In this document: positions 3,461 to 12,809 of the stretch, piece by piece
Layout: the number at the start of each line of letters is the position of its first letter
Numbering within the stretch: position 1 is the first letter of the stretch
Source of the DNA: Poseidonibacter parvus
Lineage (GTDB): Bacteria > Campylobacterota > Campylobacteria > Campylobacterales > Arcobacteraceae
Assembly (NCBI RefSeq): GCF_001956695.1
Contig: NZ_CP019070.1
Span: 1,860,001 to 1,924,000, forward strand
DNA: 64,000 nucleotides
Direction of reading: 5' to 3'
Program-made: the position numbers and the translations under genes
The notes under the pieces: generated by a model
What the model saw: the letters and a program-made list of their open reading frames with translations, nothing else
Told to the model about the DNA's origin: nothing
Databases searched by the model: none

Positions 3461-5794
3461 ATGAACTTTATAAAAATACTTGGAGCAAGTGGAAGTAAAG
3501 CCAAGGGAATAGGAACAACTTCTTTCCAAATTTTCAAAGATATTATTGTAGATGCTGGGAATGTTATAAATTCACTTGGAGAAGAAGCTAATCATATTAA
3601 CCATATTTTTTTAACTCATTCTCATGCAGACCACATAACTGATTTACCTTTTATCATTGAAACATATTTTGAAAAAAGAAAAACTCCTCTTACTATTTAT
3701 GCTTTAAAAGAAACTATTGATGTTTTAAGAAATCATTCTTTTAATGATTTAGTATGGCCTGATTTTACAAAAATTAATTTAGTTAATACTCAAACCCCTT
3801 CTTTAGTATTTAAAGAATTAAAAGTAAATGAAGTTATAGAAATAAATGATTATAAAATAAAAGCTATTGAGGCAGTGCATATACCGGGTGCATGTGGATT
3901 TGTAGTTACCAAAAATCATCAAGCATTTATTATAAGTGGAGATACATATAAAAACCCTATTATATGGAATGAAATTAATAATAATCATGAAATTAAATCA
4001 TTGATTTTAGAGTGTTCATTTCCTGATAAATTAAAAGAATTTGCACAAAGAACTTCCCACTTATCTCCAGAATTAATAAAAGAAGACCTTAAAAACCTAA
4101 AAAGAGATGATATTTCAATTTTTTTATACCATTTAAAACCTCTATATATAAAAGAAATAAAAAGAGATATTAATAAACATAAAATATTAAAATATGGAGG
4201 TAAGATATTAGTTGAAGGTGATGTAATTCATATTGATAACGGAACTATTGAACATAATTTAATTAGTGAGGATATGTTTCATGAAATTATGAAAATCAAC
4301 CTTGCTTTATCTTCTGAAACAAATAAAGATGTACTTTTAGAAAAAATACTAACACTTCTTAGAAAATTAACATCAGCAGAAGCTGGAACCTTATATTTAA
4401 AATCAAAAGATGGCTCAACACTTGATTTTAAAGTTGTTCAAAATGATAAATTAAATATTAATATGGGTGGAGCTAAAAATAATTTAAATTGGGATTCTCT
4501 ACCATTTATCAAAGAAGACGGTTCTTTAAACAATGAGATGGTTGCAATTGTTTGTGCAAAAGAAAAAAGAATAATTAACATTAAAGATGTATATAAAACC
4601 ACAAAATATGTTTTTGAAGGAACAAAAGTATTCGATAAATCAACAGGTTATAGATCAAAATCTATGCTTGTTATTCCTTTGATTAATCATGAAAATGAAG
4701 TAATTGGTGTTTTACAACTAATTAATAAAGTAGATAATCATGAAATTATTGATTTTGATAAATCTGATGAAAAAATATTAAAATCTCTTGCTTCGCAAGC
4801 TGCAATGTCACTTACTAATACACAACTAATACTTAGTTTAGAAGAGTTTTTAAATGCTTTTGTTTCAACAATTGCAAAAGCTATTGATGCAAAATCTCCT
4901 TATACAACAGACCATATTGCAAAAGTAGAAAAAATCGCCTTACTACTTGCAAATGCAATAAATGACGATAAAACTATATATAAAGAAGTTAAATATACTC
5001 AAAATGATTATAAACAAATAGGATTAGCTGCTTGGATGCATGATATTGGAAAAATTTCTATGCCTGATCACATTATAGATAAAGCAACAAAATTAGAAAA
5101 AATATTTGATAGAATAGAATTAATAGAATCAAGATTTGAAGTAATAAAAAGAGATAAAGAAATTGATTATCTAAAAAATAAGATATCAAAACTTGAATTT
5201 GAAAAAGAAGTAAATCTATTAAATGAATATATGCATTTTCTAAAACAGACTAATAAGGGTGGAGAGTTTATGGATGATAAAAATATCCATAAGCTAAATG
5301 AAATTGCAAAACTAACTTATCTAAAAGACGGAAAAAATACTCCTTTAATAGATGAAGATGAATATTATAATTTATCTATTAAAAAAGGTAGTTTAACAAA
5401 AGAAGAAATAGATATTATTAGAAATCATGCACTCTTATCACATGAAATGATTTCAACTTTACCTTTCCCTAAAAAATATAAAGATGTATTAAATATAGCT
5501 TGTAATCATCATGAAAAATTAAATGGTAAAGGTTATCCAAGAGGACTAGAAGCTAGTCAAATTAAACTAGAAGATAGAATTATGATTTTTGCAGATATTT
5601 TTGAAGCCTTAACTGCATCAGGACGGCCATATAAAGATGCTATGAAATTAACTCAAGTTTACGATATTTTAAATAAACTTGGGAACAATGGCGAAATAGA
5701 TAAAAATCTTACAGAATTCTTTTTTAATCATAAAATACTGCATGAATATGCAAATGAATCCTTATCATCAGAACAGATTGATATAAATAAGTAA
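3461..5794 (+). CDS. MBL-fold (class II cNMP phosphodiesterase-like) - GAF - HD-GYP signalling protein
   Basis: A three-part soluble signalling enzyme of 777 residues. Residues 1-265 form a metallo-beta-lactamase fold with the metal motif H53-x-H55-x-D57-H58, a later SGDT (D161), and LECSFPD with a downstream SHLSPEL, a combination I associate with class II cyclic-nucleotide phosphodiesterases. Residues about 270-455 look like a GAF ligand-binding domain. Residues about 465-770 are an HD-GYP c-di-GMP phosphodiesterase with HD at 527-528 and NHHEKLNGKGYP (GYP at 691-693), all key residues present, and an insertion of about 110 residues between the two motifs. It begins the operon, followed after 4 bases by an adenylate cyclase. 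Domain calls rest on visible motifs; the cNMP activity is inference. Confidence 0.85.
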   Translation: MNFIKILGASGSKAKGIGTTSFQIFKDIIVDAGNVINSLGEEANHINHIFLTHSHADHITDLPFIIETYFEKRKTPLTIYALKETIDVLRNHSFNDLVWPDFTKINLVNTQTPSLVFKELKVNEVIEINDYKIKAIEAVHIPGACGFVVTKNHQAFIISGDTYKNPIIWNEINNNHEIKSLILECSFPDKLKEFAQRTSHLSPELIKEDLKNLKRDDISIFLYHLKPLYIKEIKRDINKHKILKYGGKILVEGDVIHIDNGTIEHNLISEDMFHEIMKINLALSSETNKDVLLEKILTLLRKLTSAEAGTLYLKSKDGSTLDFKVVQNDKLNINMGGAKNNLNWDSLPFIKEDGSLNNEMVAIVCAKEKRIINIKDVYKTTKYVFEGTKVFDKSTGYRSKSMLVIPLINHENEVIGVLQLINKVDNHEIIDFDKSDEKILKSLASQAAMSLTNTQLILSLEEFLNAFVSTIAKAIDAKSPYTTDHIAKVEKIALLLANAINDDKTIYKEVKYTQNDYKQIGLAAWMHDIGKISMPDHIIDKATKLEKIFDRIELIESRFEVIKRDKEIDYLKNKISKLEFEKEVNLLNEYMHFLKQTNKGGEFMDDKNIHKLNEIAKLTYLKDGKNTPLIDEDEYYNLSIKKGSLTKEEIDIIRNHALLSHEMISTLPFPKKYKDVLNIACNHHEKLNGKGYPRGLEASQIKLEDRIMIFADIFEALTASGRPYKDAMKLTQVYDILNKLGNNGEIDKNLTEFFFNHKILHEYANESLSSEQIDINK

Positions 5795-5798
5795 ATAG

Positions 5799-7958
5799 AT
5801 GATTGCTAAAAATAGATTAAAGAGAAACTTAATATATATTTTAACATCAATAGTTTTATCTTTTATTATTAGCTCTATTTACATATTTTCTCCAACTCTA
5901 CCTACATCAATTGATAATAGATTAAAAGATTATATGTTTAATATCAGAGGAGAAATAGCTCCTAAAACTGATAGCATTGTTATTATTGATATAGATGAGA
6001 AATCTTTACAAAAATTAGGACAATGGCCTTGGTCAAGAGATATATTATCAAGAATTCTTAAGAATTTAACACAAAATAATATTGCAATTATAGGACTTGA
6101 TATAGTTTTTGCAGAAGAAGATAGAACCTCTCCACATAATATTTTTAAAAAATTAAATATAAAAGAAGAAGATATAGTAAATTATGATTTTGAATTTGCT
6201 CAAACAATTGCATCAACACCTACTATTTTGGGATATCAGTTTGAATTTGAGGACAAAAAACATATAAATAAAGAAGCACCTTCAATTCAAACTATTTTTA
6301 TTGAAAAAAATAAAAAATTAGGTAATAACTATTTACTTCAAGCAAAAGGAACTATCTTAAATATCCCAGTAATTCAAGATAATTCATATTCAAGTGGATT
6401 TTTTAATAACATACCTGATAATGCAGGAGTTATTAGAAGTGTACCTTTAATTATCTCTTATGATGAAGAAATATATCCTTCACTTGCTCTTGAAACTCTC
6501 AGAATTGCATTAGGGATTAAAAGAATATATATTAATTATGATGAAAATGGAGTAAAAGATTTACAATTAGATGACTATATAATTCCAACAGATAGGCATG
6601 GTAGATTACTTATTAATTTTAGAGGAAAAGAGAAAACTTTTAAATATATCTCTGCTTTAGACATATATAACAATGACTTCAAAAAAGAAGATATAGAAAA
6701 TAAGATTGCATTAATCGGTACTTCAGCTGCTGCACTAATGGATTTAAGAGCTACACCTTTTGAATCAATTTTTCCAGGAGTAGAAGTTCATGCAAATGCA
6801 ATTGATAATATTATTGCAAAAGATTTTTTATATGAAGCATCATGGGTTGATGGTGCAAATATTTTTCTAATATTTTTTCTTGTTTTATTTGTTGTTTTTT
6901 TAACAAAAAAAATACATTTAATTTTCATTCCTATTTTAACAACAAGTTTACTATTTTTAACAAGTTATTCACTTTATTATATACTTTTTAATTATGGTCT
7001 AGTACTAAATATCTTTTTCCCCCTTATTACTATTATTCTTGCAACTATTATTACAATAATGTTGCAATATTTCTATGAAATAAAAAAGAAAGATGAAATA
7101 AAAAATAAATTTGCATCAAAAGTTTCAAAAGATGTAATGGAACAATTATTAAAAAATGTAGATAATAACCAACTACAGGCACAAAATAAAGAAATTACAG
7201 TTTTCTTTAGTGATATAAGAGGTTTTACAAAAATTTCTGAAGACATAAAACAACCTGATTTATTAGTAAAATATATCAATCAATATATGACCCCAATGAG
7301 TGAAATTATCACAAAAAACAAAGGAACTATTGATAAGTATATTGGAGATGCAATTATGGCATATTGGAATGCTCCTTTTGATATTGAAGACCATGAAGAT
7401 AAAGCTGTACAAAGTGCACTTGAACAATTAGAGAAATTAAAGGAACTAAATGTTCAGCTAAAACAACAAAATCAACCTTTGATTGATATAGGAATCGGAA
7501 TAACAACAGGTATTGCAACCGTTGGTGAAATTGGTAGTATTGGACGAAGTGATTATACTGTTATTGGAGATACTATTAATATTGGGTCAAGAGTAGAATC
7601 ATTATGTAAATTTTATGGTGTAAAATTAATCATTACAAACTTTACAAAAGATAGTCTAAAAGAGAATTATATATTTAAATACCTAGATTATGTTCAATTA
7701 AAAGGAAAAGAAGAAGCTATTGAGTTATGGGAAGTAATACATAAAGAGCACTTAAGCAAAGACTTAGAAAAAGAATTAGAACTTTATAATCAAGCAATAA
7801 TACTATATAAAAAAGAAAAATTAGAAGAAGCAAAAAAACTATTTACACAACTAAATGAAATCAATTCGTCAAATATAAATAATCTTTATATCCAAAGATG
7901 TACAGATTTTTTAAATAATAAAAACTTCAAAAAGGTTTATAAACATGAAAATAAATAA
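5799..7958 (+). CDS. CHASE2 sensor adenylate/guanylate cyclase
   Basis: A membrane-bound class III nucleotide cyclase. After an N-terminal membrane anchor, residues about 35-330 form a periplasmic CHASE2 sensor (IVIIDIDEKSLQKLGQWPWSR is its usual opening). Three membrane helices lie at about 350-425. The catalytic domain follows, with metal aspartates D472 in FFSDIRGFT and D517 in YIGDAIMAYW, a lysine just before the second that normally contacts adenine, SDYTVIGDTINIGSRVES with the transition-state Asn and Arg, and a C-terminal TPR-like tail from about 650. All catalytic positions are present, so it should be active, more likely making cAMP than cGMP. It sits between a putative phosphodiesterase and a secretion pair, which suggests a regulatory role for them. 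Confidence 0.9.
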   Translation: MIAKNRLKRNLIYILTSIVLSFIISSIYIFSPTLPTSIDNRLKDYMFNIRGEIAPKTDSIVIIDIDEKSLQKLGQWPWSRDILSRILKNLTQNNIAIIGLDIVFAEEDRTSPHNIFKKLNIKEEDIVNYDFEFAQTIASTPTILGYQFEFEDKKHINKEAPSIQTIFIEKNKKLGNNYLLQAKGTILNIPVIQDNSYSSGFFNNIPDNAGVIRSVPLIISYDEEIYPSLALETLRIALGIKRIYINYDENGVKDLQLDDYIIPTDRHGRLLINFRGKEKTFKYISALDIYNNDFKKEDIENKIALIGTSAAALMDLRATPFESIFPGVEVHANAIDNIIAKDFLYEASWVDGANIFLIFFLVLFVVFLTKKIHLIFIPILTTSLLFLTSYSLYYILFNYGLVLNIFFPLITIILATIITIMLQYFYEIKKKDEIKNKFASKVSKDVMEQLLKNVDNNQLQAQNKEITVFFSDIRGFTKISEDIKQPDLLVKYINQYMTPMSEIITKNKGTIDKYIGDAIMAYWNAPFDIEDHEDKAVQSALEQLEKLKELNVQLKQQNQPLIDIGIGITTGIATVGEIGSIGRSDYTVIGDTINIGSRVESLCKFYGVKLIITNFTKDSLKENYIFKYLDYVQLKGKEEAIELWEVIHKEHLSKDLEKELELYNQAIILYKKEKLEEAKKLFTQLNEINSSNINNLYIQRCTDFLNNKNFKKVYKHENK

Positions 7959-7973
7959 TAATAGGAATGTAAT

Positions 7974-9587
7974 ATGAAATTATTCTTAATAATATTATTA
8001 TTGCCAATTACAACGATTTGGGCAAATACTTACACTTTACATATAGCATCAACTAAATACAAAGATGTTGCAAAATCATATATAGAAGAAGTTAATGATT
8101 TATTAAAAATAGAACACTTAGTAGTAAGAATACATAAAAATAAACATTATTCTTTAATAGTAAATCAAATAAAAGATAGAAATGAAGCAATTAAGATACA
8201 AGAGAAATTAAAAAATACATCATATAAAGATACTTATATAAAAAAAGACACAGCAGATTTAAAGTATCAAATAATTTACTATACAAAAATGACAAAAAAT
8301 AGCGGTGTTGTAATTAAAGAAGATGAAAAAGATTTTCTACTAGATGTAGAATCGTCAAATGAATATATTACCGCATCAACCATGTATAATATTGGAAATT
8401 ATAAAAGATCATATGAGCTATTTAATAACTTATTTTATAAGCACAACTACAATGTAAATATAAATTATTTTTTAGCTCAAAGCGCCATTAAAATTGGTAA
8501 ATTAGATGAAGCATCAATTGCATTAGAAAGAGTTCTAATAGAAAATCCAAAATTTAATAAAGCTCGATATGATTATGCAAGATTATTAACAAAACTAAAA
8601 CTAAACGAAGAAGCAAAAAAAGAGTTTAATATACTTCTAAAAGAAAATATTACAGATGAAACAAAAAAAGATATAGAAAAATATTTAAAATTTTTAAATA
8701 AAAAGAAAAAATACACTTCAAATTCTGCAACTATTATTGTAGGAATGGGTCATAATACAAATATAAAAAATAGTATCTTAGTTGAGGATTATAAAATTGA
8801 TGGTTTAGATTTAGGAGAGGATCCAATTAAAGATAATTTTCACAATGAAATACTATCACTAAGTTTTAATAAGATTTTAGAAGAAAATAAAGCTGTAAAA
8901 ATTACAAACAACTTTCTTGCTTATAATAAAAGTTTTTTTAATGAAAAGAATGAGAATACTTCAGTTATTGCATATAAACCAAATATATCATATATACATA
9001 ATCAAAATCTTTACAGTTTAGATTTAAATGCAACAAGAGTAATCAAAAAAGAAAACAAAGATATAAATGTATTCTCCATTTCACCTTCTATTAGTAATAA
9101 TAAATTTAAAACTTCAATAGAGTATCAAAAACTTCTTTACGCATATGAATATAATGATGATGGAGATAATAATAAAGACAATAACTTTGAAAAATTCTTA
9201 TTTTACTTTAAATACAAACTATCAAATAACTTAAATATTTCTACAAATATTTCAAAAATAACTAGATTAAGAAAACAAAGACTAGATATAGATAAAATTA
9301 CGAAAAGCCTATCATTATATTATAGTTATGATTTTTTTCAAAAAAATATGATATACTTAGGATACAAATTTGAAAAAAATAATTTTAAATACTTAAGTGG
9401 TTTTCCATTTAATAACAAAAGAAAAGATACAAGCCATAATATAATGTTTAATTACCTGTATTCAATAAATGACTATGATAGAATTAACTTATTAGCATCT
9501 TATACTAATAATAGTTCTAATCAAGATTCTTCTGAATATGATCAAACTGAAGTAACTATAAATTATATTAAAAAGATCCATTGGTAA
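7974..9587 (+). CDS. TPR plus outer-membrane beta-barrel protein, candidate Slam-like (DUF560, type XI) translocon
   Basis: A 537-residue exported protein. Residues 1-17 are a signal peptide (MKLFLIILLLPITTIWA). Residues about 20-90 look like a SPOR-type or small alpha/beta domain. TPR helices occupy about 125-235, ending in RYDYARLLTKLKLNEEAKKEF and a YLKFL helix. From about residue 250 (VGMGHNTNIKNS) the sequence alternates in the manner of an outer-membrane beta-barrel and ends in an aromatic residue (W). The order signal, TPR, short linker, then a barrel of about 285 residues opening with a G-x-NTN-like strand matches surface lipoprotein assembly modulators. The next gene encodes a protein with Slam-cargo-like barrels, which strengthens the call. 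A general TPR porin is the alternative. Confidence 0.65.
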   Translation: MKLFLIILLLPITTIWANTYTLHIASTKYKDVAKSYIEEVNDLLKIEHLVVRIHKNKHYSLIVNQIKDRNEAIKIQEKLKNTSYKDTYIKKDTADLKYQIIYYTKMTKNSGVVIKEDEKDFLLDVESSNEYITASTMYNIGNYKRSYELFNNLFYKHNYNVNINYFLAQSAIKIGKLDEASIALERVLIENPKFNKARYDYARLLTKLKLNEEAKKEFNILLKENITDETKKDIEKYLKFLNKKKKYTSNSATIIVGMGHNTNIKNSILVEDYKIDGLDLGEDPIKDNFHNEILSLSFNKILEENKAVKITNNFLAYNKSFFNEKNENTSVIAYKPNISYIHNQNLYSLDLNATRVIKKENKDINVFSISPSISNNKFKTSIEYQKLLYAYEYNDDGDNNKDNNFEKFLFYFKYKLSNNLNISTNISKITRLRKQRLDIDKITKSLSLYYSYDFFQKNMIYLGYKFEKNNFKYLSGFPFNNKRKDTSHNIMFNYLYSINDYDRINLLASYTNNSSNQDSSEYDQTEVTINYIKKIHW

Positions 9588-9599
9588 AAAAGGAATAAA

Positions 9600-12500
9600 A
9601 TGAAATCTTTATTTATACTAATAATATTTGCAAATTTACTATTTGCAAACGTTGGAAAAATTGTTTCACTAAAAGGTGAAGCTAATATAACAAGAGAGAA
9701 TAAAACTTTTCAAGTTAAAAGAGATACTCTATTAAAAGAAAAAGATATTCTTATTACAAAGAATAACTCTAAAGTACAAATTCTATTTAAAGATGAAACA
9801 ATCATCTCTATTGGTAAAAACTCTACATTTAAAATCAATGACTATTTATTTGAGAATAAAGACAATGTTAAAGCAGAGTTCTCAATGATAAAAGGTGTAT
9901 TTAGAACTATTACAGGAAGAATTGGAAAAATAGCACCACAAAACTTCAAACTAAAAACTAAAAGTGCATCAATTGGTATTAGAGGTACTCAAATTATTAC
10001 TGATATTACTGATGGAAAAGAAAGAATTTTTTGTACCGAAGGCCAAATTGAAGTAACACAAAATCTAACAAATCTTAAAATCATTGTTAATCAAGGTGAA
10101 TTTATTGCAATGCATGAAAATAATGGTGCTGAATTACTGAAAAATAAAACAAAAACAAAAGATTTAAAAGAAGTAAATAAAAATGTTTCTATTGGTGAAA
10201 ATAAAGCTGTTGATACAGTAAGCATAATAGAAGAAGTTTCTTCTCCTGAAATAGAAGAGACGACTTCAAATGTTAATTCTACACCTGATGTTGTAGAAGA
10301 AGTAAATGAAGTAGAAAAAAGTGAAAAAGTATCAGAACAACTTTCTGAACAAGAAGAGGCAGAAGCTGAAGCTCAAAGAATTGCTGACGAATTAGCTGCT
10401 GAAGAAGAAAGATTAGCACAAGAAGCTGCCGCTGCTGCTGAAGCTAAAAGAATTGCTGCTGAATTAGCTGCTGCCGAAGCTCAAAGAATTGCGGACGAAT
10501 TAGCTGCTAAACTAGCTGCTGCTGAAGAAGAAAGATTAGCACAAGAAGCTGCCGCTGCTGCTGAAGCTAAAAGAATTGCTGATGAATTAGCTGCTGCTGA
10601 AGCTCAAAGAATTACTGATGAACTAGCTGCTGCTGAAGAAGAAAGATTAGCACAAGAGGCTGCCGCTGCTGCTGAAGCTCAAAGAATTGCGGATGAATTA
10701 GCTGCTGCTGAAGCTCAAAGAATTGCGGATGAATTAGCTGCTGCTGAAGAGCAAAGATTAGCACAAGAAGCTGCCGCTGCTGCTGAAGCTAAAAGAATTG
10801 CTGATGAATTAGCTGCTGCTGAAGCTCAAAGAATTGCTGAAGAACTAGCTGCTGCTGAAGAAGAAAGATTAGCACAAGAAGCTGCCGCTGCTGCTGAAGC
10901 TAAAAGAATTGCTGATGAATTAGCTGCTGCTGAAGCTCAAAGAATTGCTGAAGAACTAGCTGCTGCTGAAGAGCAAAGATTAGCACAAGAAGCTGCCGCT
11001 GCTGCTGAAGCTAAAAGAATTGCTGATGAATTAGCTGCTGCTGAAGCTCAAAGAATTGCGGATGAATTAGCTGCTGCTGAAGAAGAAAGACTAGCACAAG
11101 AAGCTGCCGCTGCTGCTGAAGCTAAAAGAATTGCTGATGAATTAGCTGCTGCTGAAATTCAAAGGCTAGAAGATGCTGCTGCAACAGCAGAAGAATTACA
11201 AAAACTAGAGGAAGAACTAGCTGCTGCTGAAGAAGAAAGATTAGCACAAGAGGCTGCCGCTGCTGCTGAAGCTAAAAGAATTGCTGATGAATTAGCTGCT
11301 GCTGAAGCTCAAAGAATTGCTGATGAACTAGCTGCTGCTGAAGAAGAAAGATTAGCACAAGAGGCTGCCGCTGCTGCTGAAGCTAAAAGAATTGCTGATG
11401 AATTAGCTGCTGCTGAAATTCAAAGAATTGCTGATGAATTAGCTGCTGCTGAAGAGCAAAGATTAGCACAAGAAGCTGCCGCTGCTGCTGAAGCTAAAAG
11501 AATTGCTGATGAATTAGCTGCTGCTGAAGCTCAAAGAATTGCGGATGAATTAGCTGCTGCTGAAGAGCAAAGATTAGCACAAGAAGCTGCCGCTGCTGCT
11601 GAAGCTAAAAGAATTGCTGATGAATTAGCTGCTGCTGAAGCTCAAAGAATTGCTGATGAACTAGCTGCTGCTGAAGAAGAAAGATTAGCACAAGAAGCGG
11701 CTGCTGCTGCTGAAGCTAAAAGAATTGCTGATGAATTAGCTGCTGCTGAAGAGCAAAGATTAGCTGACGAGTTAGCTGCTGCTGAAGAGCAAAGATTAGC
11801 ACAAGAAGCTGCCGCTGCTGCTGAAGCTAAAAGAATTGCTGATGAATTAGCTGCTGCTGAAGAGCAAAGATTAGCTGACGAGTTAGCTGCTGCTGAGGCT
11901 CAAAGATTAGCAGATGAACTTGCTGCGGCAGAACTAGCAGAAAGTTTAAAAGAATTAACACCATCATCTTACTTTGAAAACAATAATTCAAAAGCAACAT
12001 ATATAGGAAATTTTAATGCTAGTCCTTTTGATGATAAAAGACAATATATAGAATATGATGATGATAAAACTGAATATGCAATTCCAGAAGAAACAACGAT
12101 ATCAATGGACATAGATTTTGGAAAATCTAAGGACCAAGTATCAAATGGAAAGATATCAGTAGAAGGTCAAGATGATTTAGAATTTGATGGTAAAATTAAA
12201 AGTGACAACAGCATTCAACTTAAAGCTGCTAATAATACTACAGGAGGTGGAGGTGATGCTTATCTTTATGGAAGTAATGGTGAGATTCTTAAAGGTGATA
12301 TAAAATTAAAAAATGATGATTTAAAACTTGAAGGTGATTTTGAAGCAAATAAAAGTGACTTTATTGATTTAACACAAAGTAATGATTTAGAAGAATTAAC
12401 AAACCTAGATTATTTTATAGACAATTCATCTTATGCAACATACAAAGGGGATTTTAATTCTTCAGAATATGACGCTTCAGAACAATATAAAGAAGTTTTA

Positions 12501-12809
12501 GGTGTTAAATATGAAATACCTGAAGAAACAACAATAAGTATGGGAATTGATTTTGGAGCAGACTCTAATCAAATATCAAATGGGTTAATAACACAAGATA
12601 ATCCTTTTACAACAGATTTTACTTTTGATGGTTCAATTAATGATGATAAAAGTTTTACTTTAACTGGATCTGGCGATACAGAAGGAACAGGTTCTGGTAA
12701 CTTTTATGGAAATGAAGCTGATGTAATTAAAGGTCAAGTAGATATGCAAGATAAGTATAGTCAATTTGGAACTTCAATAAAAGGAAATTTTGAGGCAGAT
12801 AAAGAATAA
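9600..12809 (+). CDS. Giant secreted FecR-domain protein with alanine-rich helical stalk and two TbpB-like barrels
   Basis: A 1069-residue exported protein. Residues 1-17 are a signal peptide without a lipobox cysteine. Residues 18-175 form a FecR domain (GVFRTITGRIGK and KSASIGIRGTQI). An acidic linker leads to an uninterrupted Ala/Glu-rich helix at about 254-783 made of 37-residue repeats. Two related domains end the protein, at about 791-921 and 938-1069. Each has an IDFG strand and a closing GxxYG-NxE-x2-KG-x3 strand pair followed by GDFEANK or GNFEADK, like the FYG-AxE-xGG motif of TbpB-type barrels carried by Slam substrates. It lies 12 bases after the candidate translocon. The stalk would reach about 80 nm if fully helical. 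Function is unknown; surface adhesin or spacer is a guess. Confidence 0.8.
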   Translation: MKSLFILIIFANLLFANVGKIVSLKGEANITRENKTFQVKRDTLLKEKDILITKNNSKVQILFKDETIISIGKNSTFKINDYLFENKDNVKAEFSMIKGVFRTITGRIGKIAPQNFKLKTKSASIGIRGTQIITDITDGKERIFCTEGQIEVTQNLTNLKIIVNQGEFIAMHENNGAELLKNKTKTKDLKEVNKNVSIGENKAVDTVSIIEEVSSPEIEETTSNVNSTPDVVEEVNEVEKSEKVSEQLSEQEEAEAEAQRIADELAAEEERLAQEAAAAAEAKRIAAELAAAEAQRIADELAAKLAAAEEERLAQEAAAAAEAKRIADELAAAEAQRITDELAAAEEERLAQEAAAAAEAQRIADELAAAEAQRIADELAAAEEQRLAQEAAAAAEAKRIADELAAAEAQRIAEELAAAEEERLAQEAAAAAEAKRIADELAAAEAQRIAEELAAAEEQRLAQEAAAAAEAKRIADELAAAEAQRIADELAAAEEERLAQEAAAAAEAKRIADELAAAEIQRLEDAAATAEELQKLEEELAAAEEERLAQEAAAAAEAKRIADELAAAEAQRIADELAAAEEERLAQEAAAAAEAKRIADELAAAEIQRIADELAAAEEQRLAQEAAAAAEAKRIADELAAAEAQRIADELAAAEEQRLAQEAAAAAEAKRIADELAAAEAQRIADELAAAEEERLAQEAAAAAEAKRIADELAAAEEQRLADELAAAEEQRLAQEAAAAAEAKRIADELAAAEEQRLADELAAAEAQRLADELAAAELAESLKELTPSSYFENNNSKATYIGNFNASPFDDKRQYIEYDDDKTEYAIPEETTISMDIDFGKSKDQVSNGKISVEGQDDLEFDGKIKSDNSIQLKAANNTTGGGGDAYLYGSNGEILKGDIKLKNDDLKLEGDFEANKSDFIDLTQSNDLEELTNLDYFIDNSSYATYKGDFNSSEYDASEQYKEVLGVKYEIPEETTISMGIDFGADSNQISNGLITQDNPFTTDFTFDGSINDDKSFTLTGSGDTEGTGSGNFYGNEADVIKGQVDMQDKYSQFGTSIKGNFEADKE
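10366..11940 (+). repeat. Tandem 111-bp repeat array encoding the helical stalk
   Basis: Thirteen copies of a unit starting at GATTAGCACA (CTAGCACA in one copy) encode R/E-RLAQEAAAAAEAKRIADELAAAE-type sequence. Copies begin at 10411, 10534, 10645, 10756, 10867, 10978, 11089, 11239, 11350, 11461, 11572, 11683 and 11794. The spacings are 123, then five of 111, one of 150, and five more of 111. The 705-bp offset between the two blocks of regular copies suggests a block duplication. The 37-residue period suits an 11/3 helical repeat and keeps the reading frame. The array is far richer in GC than its surroundings because of repeated GCT/GCC alanine codons. Confidence 0.95.

Follow-up and report, generated by a model that had tools for sequence, protein, structure and literature searches.

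A putative Slam-like translocon and its putative FecR-domain cargo within a CHASE2 cyclase/cAMP gene cluster of Poseidonibacter parvus

Why does a candidate type XI (Slam-like) secretion pair lie directly beside genes for cyclic AMP (cAMP) signalling? The question is raised by two adjacent genes of Poseidonibacter parvus (Campylobacterota; Arcobacteraceae), at positions 7,974 to 12,809 of a 64,000-nucleotide stretch of its 2.87-Mb genome (hereafter the window; assembly GCF_001956695.1, contig NZ_CP019070.1, positions 1,860,001 to 1,924,000). An original prediction, made from the DNA letters, read the two genes as a translocon and its exported cargo. Both open reading frames (ORFs) are present on the plus strand, 12 bases apart, and the kinship of their products to the translocons and cargo of type XI secretion systems (T11SS) stands; what the prediction overlooked are two signalling genes immediately upstream and a SPOR-like domain in the translocon. 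The context that counts most is that the pair is one half of a CHASE2-cyclase/cAMP cluster. We propose that translocon and cargo are joined with the two upstream genes in one trans-envelope cAMP signalling unit, a proposal to which we give an even chance. Gene order, domains, kinship to T11SS translocons and cargo and to the retention domain of adhesins, and recurrence of the cluster were all computed and are set out below.

A putative translocon related to SlipAM barrels

The first gene of the pair encodes a 537-aa protein with an N-terminal hydrophobic segment, a tetratricopeptide repeat (TPR) domain (TPR_19, 6.8e-8) and a predicted barrel of 14 strands. The original prediction had named a signal peptide, TPR and an outer-membrane barrel; Slam1 has been described as a TPR domain followed by a predicted 14-strand barrel (PMC5449769). 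Direct Pfam and NCBIfam matches are suggestive but fall below their cut-offs (TPR_Slam, 20.7 bits against 35.2; SPOR, residues 18-92, 20.9 bits against 21), and for this reason we turned to homologues, profile-profile alignment and structure comparison. Two overlapping alignments of translocon homologues were used, A1 with 31 sequences and A4 with 45. SlipAM (PF04575, DUF560) matches 11/31 and 12/45 of them, TPR_Slam 26/31 and 32/45, and SPOR 6/31 and 7/45, respectively. In hhalign comparisons restricted to the barrels, the window clade (5 sequences) aligned at 98.8% over 278 columns with seven homologues, six of them SlipAM-positive (the seventh, the first gene of locus L176, is not listed as such), against 0.7% for an unrelated barrel without TPR, a control comprising two sequences of one barrel family. 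Judged from these alignments, the barrel of the translocon is homologous to SlipAM/DUF560 barrels and does not fall clearly into another porin family.

The same relationship appears at the level of genomes. A search with PF04575 at E 0.01 gave no match in the P. parvus genome and 19 places in 15 of 60 genomes (P. parvus included), and the window translocon used as query on the same 60 genomes found matches in 33. When the two tables were compared, 15 of the 19 PF04575 places proved to be genes that the window translocon also matches.

An AlphaFold2 (AF2) model of the translocon, made from an alignment of 45 sequences (mean pLDDT 87.4), shows a signal helix, a strand-helix-strand-strand-helix-strand unit at residues 19-92, the TPR helices and the 14 strands (Table 1). 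Its barrel is closest to the porins CymA (Z 21.9) and OmpG (Z 20.5), both of which are 14-stranded. Foldseek returned generic porins and BcsC with no Slam structure among the best 50 matches, so this search indicates the type of barrel only. Outer-membrane barrels usually end in an aromatic residue; the translocon ends in IHW and the neighbouring protein in EADKE, so that only the translocon fits this rule.

These searches also bear on a different assignment, in which the 537-aa protein would be another type of TPR-barrel protein, either a polysaccharide exporter of the BcsC, PgaA or EpsL type or a BBP2-type porin, and would not move the barrel protein encoded next to it. Its best NCBIfam match is EpsL (6.7e-6; 25.3 bits against a cut-off of 275), BcsC stands among the Foldseek matches, and the rival barrel family BBP2_2 matches 19 of the 45 homologues in A4, more than SlipAM does, though weakly, with a best value of 3.5e-6 against 1.6e-14 for SlipAM. 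The near full-length profile alignment to SlipAM-positive barrels, the 14 strands, and the T11SS-cargo barrels borne by the partner protein further speak against this assignment, and we consider it very improbable.

A putative cargo with TbpB-like barrels and a retention-like base

The second gene encodes a 1069-aa protein that ends in two similar domains. The strand-pair motif given for them by the original prediction, G-x-x-YG-NxE-x2-KG, holds approximately, the actual copies being YLYGSNGEILKG and NFYGNEADVIKG, and the closing GDFEANK and GNFEADK are present as described. A profile of 28 homologous cargos matched TbpB (2e-11) and NHBA (GNA2132; 6.7e-8) in the PDB, followed by hemophilin (0.0019) and, weakly, LbpB (0.024). 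Because of this TbpB match, and because a FecR gene adjoins 28 of 32 translocon genes (see below), we take the C-terminal signal to be beyond chance. The orthologue from Poseidonibacter ostreae (locus L085, 619 aa) was picked for modelling because its stalk is short (pLDDT 71.7, pTM 0.41). The model consists of a beta-rich N-terminal domain, a disordered linker, a helix and two groups of strands, and by our own count each group has eight longer strands, in agreement with a pair of eight-strand barrels. In VIA-align comparisons of this model, NHBA (Z 12.1; 111 residues aligned, 2.5 A), fHbp (11.2) and TbpB (11.1) rank above membrane barrels such as OmpW (9.5). The sequence profiles and the predicted structure support an assignment of the C-terminal domains to the TbpB/NHBA/fHbp type. 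Export of both TbpB and fHbp depends on Slam (PMC8406197).

The N-terminus of the cargo is hydrophobic by eye, and a pattern search found no lipobox; as its single cysteine is residue 145, the window cargo has none. The lipobox pattern is likewise absent from all 72 FecR partners collected (duplicates included). Cys145 (window 10032-10034) lies in the FecR domain and is conserved in every one of the 28 proteins in alignment A3, and four of the 72 partners (L099, L101 and L118 twice) carry no cysteine.

Between the two ends lies the Ala/Glu-rich stalk, whose repeat has a period of 111 bp with 89% matches. Relatives of the cargo are 448, 510, 619, 726 and 1069 aa long, and among close relatives the stalk, measured by eye, ranges from none to about 530 residues. 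The original prediction had regarded the missing lipobox, the tandem barrels and the long helical stalk as unusual. All are found, but cargos with no lipobox and with tandem barrels are ordinary in T11SS (PMC8406197; PMC12282271), and a helical repeat stalk has a precedent in the Pls-like group (PMC12282271). What is unusual is a row of four genes that includes those for a cAMP phosphodiesterase and a CHASE2 cyclase, along with a FecR domain whose first 74 residues are retention-like. A giant version of the architecture occurs in another genome (G009; L062 7397-16372), where two translocon homologues flank a FecR cargo of 2991 aa; Ig-like or adhesin repeats gave no match in it, and such repeats occur in one member of A3.

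The FecR domain named in the original prediction is confirmed (Pfam, 9.3e-13), and its first part has a further relationship. For the whole cargo model, the top fold match is 5ix9, titled a cell surface anchoring domain (Z 12.5), which superposes on model residues 15-88 at 3.1 A over 74/76 residues with 26% identity; this is the region that anchors the ice adhesin of Marinomonas primoryensis. FecR-type anti-sigma domains come next, on model residues 46-199 (4m0h, Z 11.1; PupR 6ovk, Z 10.5). A profile of 35 N-termini searched against the PDB also placed 5ix9 (antifreeze protein) first, at 1.1e-4, with the next match at 0.49; a GIRGT motif is one of the features that these N-termini conserve. 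NF033682 (retention module-containing protein, retention_LapA) matches 33 of the 35 N-termini at E 0.01, with a best value of 8e-9; the window N-terminus reaches 19.7 bits, and scores stay under the curated cut-off of 50 in every row in which bits were read. The membrane-anchoring domain was first described in the M. primoryensis adhesin, and retention modules are periplasmic in type I and type Vb adhesins (PMC13090378). On the profile and model comparisons together, the N-terminus of the cargo is kin to this retention domain.

A cAMP gene row and its recurrence

The pair is preceded by two further plus-strand genes, so placed in tandem that the gaps are 4 bases between the first and the cyclase gene, 15 between cyclase and translocon, and 12 within the pair (Table 1); on this arrangement the four are treated as one row. 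The 777-aa product of the first has matches to PDEase_II (9.7e-16), GAF (1.5e-13) and HD_5 (5.6e-33), and the 719-aa cyclase to CHASE2 (1.1e-60) and Guanylate_cyc (1e-22), all in Pfam. A Campylobacterota cluster of four genes, for a cyclase, a phosphodiesterase, a FecR protein and a TPR protein, has been proposed to form one cAMP pathway; adenylate cyclases occur in 21% of the species of that phylum, every one belongs to the CHASE2 type, and most lie in such a cluster (PMC9239204). The window locus has the same make-up, which is complete here. In the text available of that paper, the FecR protein is called an outer-membrane protein, and the TPR and FecR proteins are not tied to Slam/T11SS, to TbpB-like barrels or to a retention domain. 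The closest named cyclase loci are those of Arcobacter sp. and Poseidonibacter.

Table 1. Features of the four-gene row, in positions of the window
Feature	Position	Strand	Basis
777-aa metallo-beta-lactamase/class II cAMP phosphodiesterase-like + GAF + HD protein, putative cAMP phosphodiesterase	3461..5794	+	
719-aa CHASE2 receptor-type adenylate/guanylate cyclase	5799..7958	+	Pfam
537-aa Slam-like (SlipAM-related) outer-membrane protein, putative translocon	7974..9587	+	
SPOR-like domain, about residues 17-94, mature N-terminus, putative peptidoglycan binding	8022..8255	+	Pfam SPOR, AF2
TPR domain, about residues 124-243	8343..8702	+	Pfam TPR_19; AF2 helices 129-242
14-strand outer-membrane barrel, residues 248-536	8715..9581	+	AF2, hhalign
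1069-aa FecR / stalk / two-barrel protein, putative cargo	9600..12809	+	
N-terminal FecR domain, to about residue 185; residues 16-89 match antifreeze-adhesin anchoring (retention) domain	9645..10154	+	
Ala/Glu-rich, probably helical stalk, 37-aa repeat x 12.4	10497..11875	+	Tandem Repeats Finder, composition
TbpB-like barrel 1, limits by eye	11964..12356	+	NCBIfam slam_lipo stretch; AF2 of orthologue
TbpB-like barrel 2, limits by eye	12400..12806	+	TbpB_B_D residues 944-1057 (Pfam); AF2 of orthologue

The pairing recurs widely. Among loci selected by their translocon, 28 of 32 translocon ORFs of at least 380 aa (window included) have a FecR gene adjacent on the same strand, and 22 of the 32 have a cyclase within three genes; of the four exceptions to the first count, two are at the ends of contigs, and the other two have as neighbour an ORF that is truncated where the stretch ends. 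When loci were instead selected by their cyclase (80 named loci), a translocon was present in 47, a FecR gene in 46 and both in 43, and 42 of the 51 translocon ORFs in this set adjoin a same-strand FecR gene. One of the two genes is found at 27 of the 39 cyclase loci that have more than 5 kb on both sides. Named loci L084, L085, L087, L089-L092, L094, L105 and L119 appear to duplicate contigs already in use, so that the linkage counts, A1 and A4, and the 72 cargos overlap. L084 was counted as lacking the pair; if it belongs to the same contig as G006:C77, a translocon-FecR pair lies about 18 kb off.

The association extends beyond Campylobacterota. In a sample of 94 genomes from the class of Hydrogenovibrio (Gammaproteobacteria), SlipAM occurs in 6 genomes at 8 places, 7 of which were read (L174 was left out). 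A FecR gene lies beside six of the seven, including a decayed copy, L181, where it follows a short ORF, and a cyclase is in the stretch too in five. The centre genome was picked for having the cluster; the five other genomes give 4/5. On a Shinella plasmid, a TPR-barrel protein, a FecR protein and a CHASE2 cyclase are encoded in a row: the first matches the translocon profile at 1.1e-24 and SlipAM not at all, and the second has weak FHBP_C and TbpB_B_D ends. A plasmid tblastn search with the translocon as query found nothing.

Several of these loci show peculiarities of arrangement. The Shinella trio (plasmid p1; L187 2942-15890) lies directly 5' of NHLP-type bacteriocin export genes and a gene for a cyclic-nucleotide-binding protein. 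In Hydrogenovibrio sp. JE_KL2 (L118 4496-9892), two tandem translocon-FecR pairs stand 5' of a single CHASE2 cyclase, as if two inputs fed one enzyme. At L182 1910-7705 (G153), a SlipAM gene is accompanied by genes for two FecR proteins, of which one matches LysM weakly (0.014), possibly a peptidoglycan-binding module that parallels the SPOR-like domain of the window translocon. At an orthologous locus (L051 5665-7191, G005), the translocon gene is split by an inserted ORF of 508 aa and the cargo gene is intact. An apparent cyclase-FecR fusion in L144 was rejected, as its ORF crosses a scaffold gap (a run of X).

A proposed signalling unit, its alternatives and its meaning

Conservation along the two proteins is uneven. 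Compared with a congener (L048), identity is 92% in the FecR part and 87% in the TPR domain, and falls to 58% in the two cargo barrels and 56% in the outer-membrane barrel; three further relatives show the same order wherever both parts could be compared. This pattern fits an inner half with fixed partners and an outer half that faces the environment. Four pairs had given the impression that conservation is stronger in CHASE2 than in the cyclase part; it was not used as evidence.

From these data we infer export, orientation, retention, FecR-CHASE2 contact and a signal, as follows. Sec would carry the non-lipidated cargo into the periplasm, and the stalk with its TbpB-like barrels would reach the cell surface through the 14-strand SlipAM-related barrel, with the TPR domain helping the passage and the SPOR-like domain holding the translocon to peptidoglycan. 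The C-terminal barrel has been regarded as the putative targeting domain of T11SS cargo (PMC12282271), and a speculative proposal has it that cargo is pulled through Slam as it folds at the surface (PMC9090332). The FecR domain, which in its first part shares homology with the retention domain of LapA-type adhesins, would fold in the periplasm and block release, so that the barrels stay anchored outside, and it may touch the adenylate cyclase at the CHASE2 domain, which is periplasmic. Events at the surface, be it ligand binding, pulling or failed export, could then alter cAMP, and the adjacent phosphodiesterase would reset it.

With more doubt than confidence, we also put forward a new class of trans-envelope receptor, in which a barrel-tipped stalk threaded through a type XI system has a FecR/retention base that gates a CHASE2 cyclase. 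It is possible, if equally tentative, that in such a class the secretion system is part of the sensor or export itself is sensed, and that LapA-type retention works with a third kind of pore. That the class spans Campylobacterota, Gammaproteobacteria and some Alphaproteobacteria is a suggestion we make with similar reserve.

Compared with known Slam systems that have a TbpB-barrel cargo (Neisseria Slam1-TbpB and the hemophilin type), the window pair is alike in its TPR domain and 14-strand DUF560-related barrel, and in having next to the translocon gene one for a protein with TbpB/NHBA/fHbp-type barrels at its C-terminal end; cargo that is not lipidated is known there in subcluster 1B. It differs in a translocon that stays under SlipAM detection and has a SPOR-like domain, in a cargo that begins with a FecR/retention-like domain, and in being linked to a CHASE2 cyclase and a cAMP phosphodiesterase, whereas those systems serve iron or heme uptake. 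The giant LapA-type adhesins (LapA, MpIBP, CdrA) share the homologous N-terminal domain, a non-lipidated stalk (secreted in the adhesins, and putatively so in the window cargo) and the distal domain. They use a type I TolC channel or a type Vb partner, whereas the barrel encoded next to our cargo is SlipAM-related, and they have a LapG site and LapD/LapG control by c-di-GMP, whereas the window cargo has no [TAP]AA[GV] site and lies in a cAMP cluster.

Several observations weigh against the proposed unit. For the translocon, PF04575 gives no match up to E 10, so we call the protein a divergent relative and not a family member; the original reading of a Slam translocon keeps the homology of its barrel to SlipAM and lacks a family match of its own. 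For the cargo, the last 289 residues score 24.4 bits with TbpB_B_D, just below the Pfam cut-off of 26, and 27 bits with slam_lipo (cut-off 80), so that the predicted TbpB-like barrels are borne out by the PDB profile and not by the Pfam threshold. The cargo model is that of an orthologue only and of middling confidence, the VIA-align ranges for the barrels cover both together (about 341-619), and the first TbpB rows in Foldseek have a TM of only 0.11-0.13; given these joint alignments and the poor superposition, the fold evidence for a single barrel is weaker than the sequence evidence. The window N-terminus scores higher against the FecR-type families Lsa33 (2.4e-11) and LipL45 (7.1e-11) than against retention_LapA (7.7e-4), and retention_LapA has no match in the 2991-aa cargo of G009. 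A search of residues 151-330 for a LapG site ([TAP]AA[GV]) following the FecR domain found none in the 72 cargos, so the locus does not count as a LapA system. At 12 of the 39 cyclase loci with flanks, neither a FecR nor a translocon gene lies nearby. Conservation of CHASE2 relative to the catalytic core averages -3.0 at loci with FecR or translocon (n=47) and -0.3 at those without (n=12; P 0.20), so that co-evolution of CHASE2 with the presence of these genes is not seen in this comparison. The S. meliloti FecR protein SMc02177, numbered next to cyaD1, was dispensable for perception in one assay (PMC5498481). Finally, nine of the 42 complete FecR partners in the named set have no barrel (L114, L137, L143, L147 twice, L148, L158, L160 and L163).

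LapG-family genes (PF06035) are present in 34 of the 60 genomes (P. parvus included), three of them in P. parvus itself (G000 C1 470565, 743152 and 2504644), which suggests LapA-type adhesin systems elsewhere in the family. Control of the cargo by LapG was dropped as a candidate, the cargos having no LapG site despite these genes.

The barrel-less partners bear directly on a reading in which nothing is exported. The Slam-like protein would then be an outer-membrane receptor or anchor, the FecR protein, the TPR domain and CHASE2 would form a periplasmic relay, and the barrel would be a periplasmic binding domain. Seven of the nine barrel-less partners still lie beside a full translocon, and these seven translocons are SlipAM-related as a set (99.9%; control 6.4%); of the other two, L148 has a cut translocon and L158 none. 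An outer-membrane barrel protein, NsrA, is moreover known to signal to a CHASE2 cyclase (PMC7529298; PMC13001267). Against this, 33 of the 42 partners keep a barrel (31 by hidden Markov model, and L133 and L141 by eye), a domain common to characterised T11SS cargo (PMC12282271), and a stalk that varies from absent to several hundred residues is more readily expected of a surface protein than of one that stays in the periplasm. We regard this reading as distinctly unlikely. Since most barrel-less partners keep kin of the translocon beside them, the steadier core of these loci is the FecR protein with the translocon, and the barrel is a tip that is common but can be missing.

A simpler reading is that of a plain T11SS pair, in which secretion would carry the entire cargo, together with its FecR domain, to the surface or the medium and the closeness of the cyclase reflects shared regulation, such as cAMP-controlled expression of an adhesin or a binding protein. 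Hemophilin is an example of T11SS cargo that carries no lipid and is released in soluble form (PMC8406197), and some translocon-FecR pairs, those at L060, L061, L065, L070 and L075 among them, have no cyclase in the stretch that was read. The kinship of the N-terminus to a periplasmic retention domain, and its far higher conservation than that of the barrels, argue the other way. So do FecR genes that lie beside CHASE2-type cyclases with no translocon homologue in the stretch (Ruegeria; S. meliloti pSymB), to be compared with the LysM-FecR/CHASE2 kinase operons of Burkholderia (PMC5192318). As such FecR-CHASE2 pairs occur with no Slam-like gene nearby, they suggest FecR as the partner of CHASE2, and we judge the plain secretion pair to be rather unlikely.

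Two further known systems resemble the signalling unit that we propose. In S. meliloti NsrA-CyaK, too, an external protein signal depends on an outer-membrane barrel protein to reach an inner-membrane CHASE2 adenylate cyclase, the difference being that NsrA is itself the barrel receptor (PMC7529298; PMC13001267). The Burkholderia operon with a LysM-FecR protein and a CHASE2 histidine kinase (BiofilmReg) likewise combines a periplasmic FecR-domain protein with a CHASE2 receptor; it differs in its kinase output, and the text available of PMC5192318 mentions no Slam-like gene or TbpB barrel.

The cluster itself is already published. A literature search, with supplements and most subscription journals outside its scope, found no paper on a link between T11SS and the cAMP cluster or on the kinship to the retention domain, and neither the word FecR nor the word Campylobacter is present in the main texts of PMC12282271 and PMC8406197. 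Within the literature searched, the link to secretion and the retention kinship are new; the evidence for the kinship is strong, and the mechanism is what we infer.

The signals of CHASE2 receptors have been reported to be unknown (PMC5192318), and by 2025 cargo had been verified for only seven T11SS proteins, which all belong to a single cluster (PMC12282271). If our proposal is true, the FecR protein would be both a T11SS cargo and the input of CHASE2, a testable answer to both gaps, and the retention domain would be able to work with a Slam-like pore. A survey of 2017 found Slam-related sequences across all proteobacterial clades including the epsilonproteobacteria, though not in Campylobacter, and omitted the epsilon clade from its analysis of gene neighbourhoods (PMC5449769). 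The window locus shows what may adjoin Slam-related genes in epsilonproteobacteria, and the same pairing at most of the few SlipAM genes read in Gammaproteobacteria hints at a role different from iron uptake. Together these loci suggest that an exported protein may be one half of a sensor that reaches from the cell surface to the interior.

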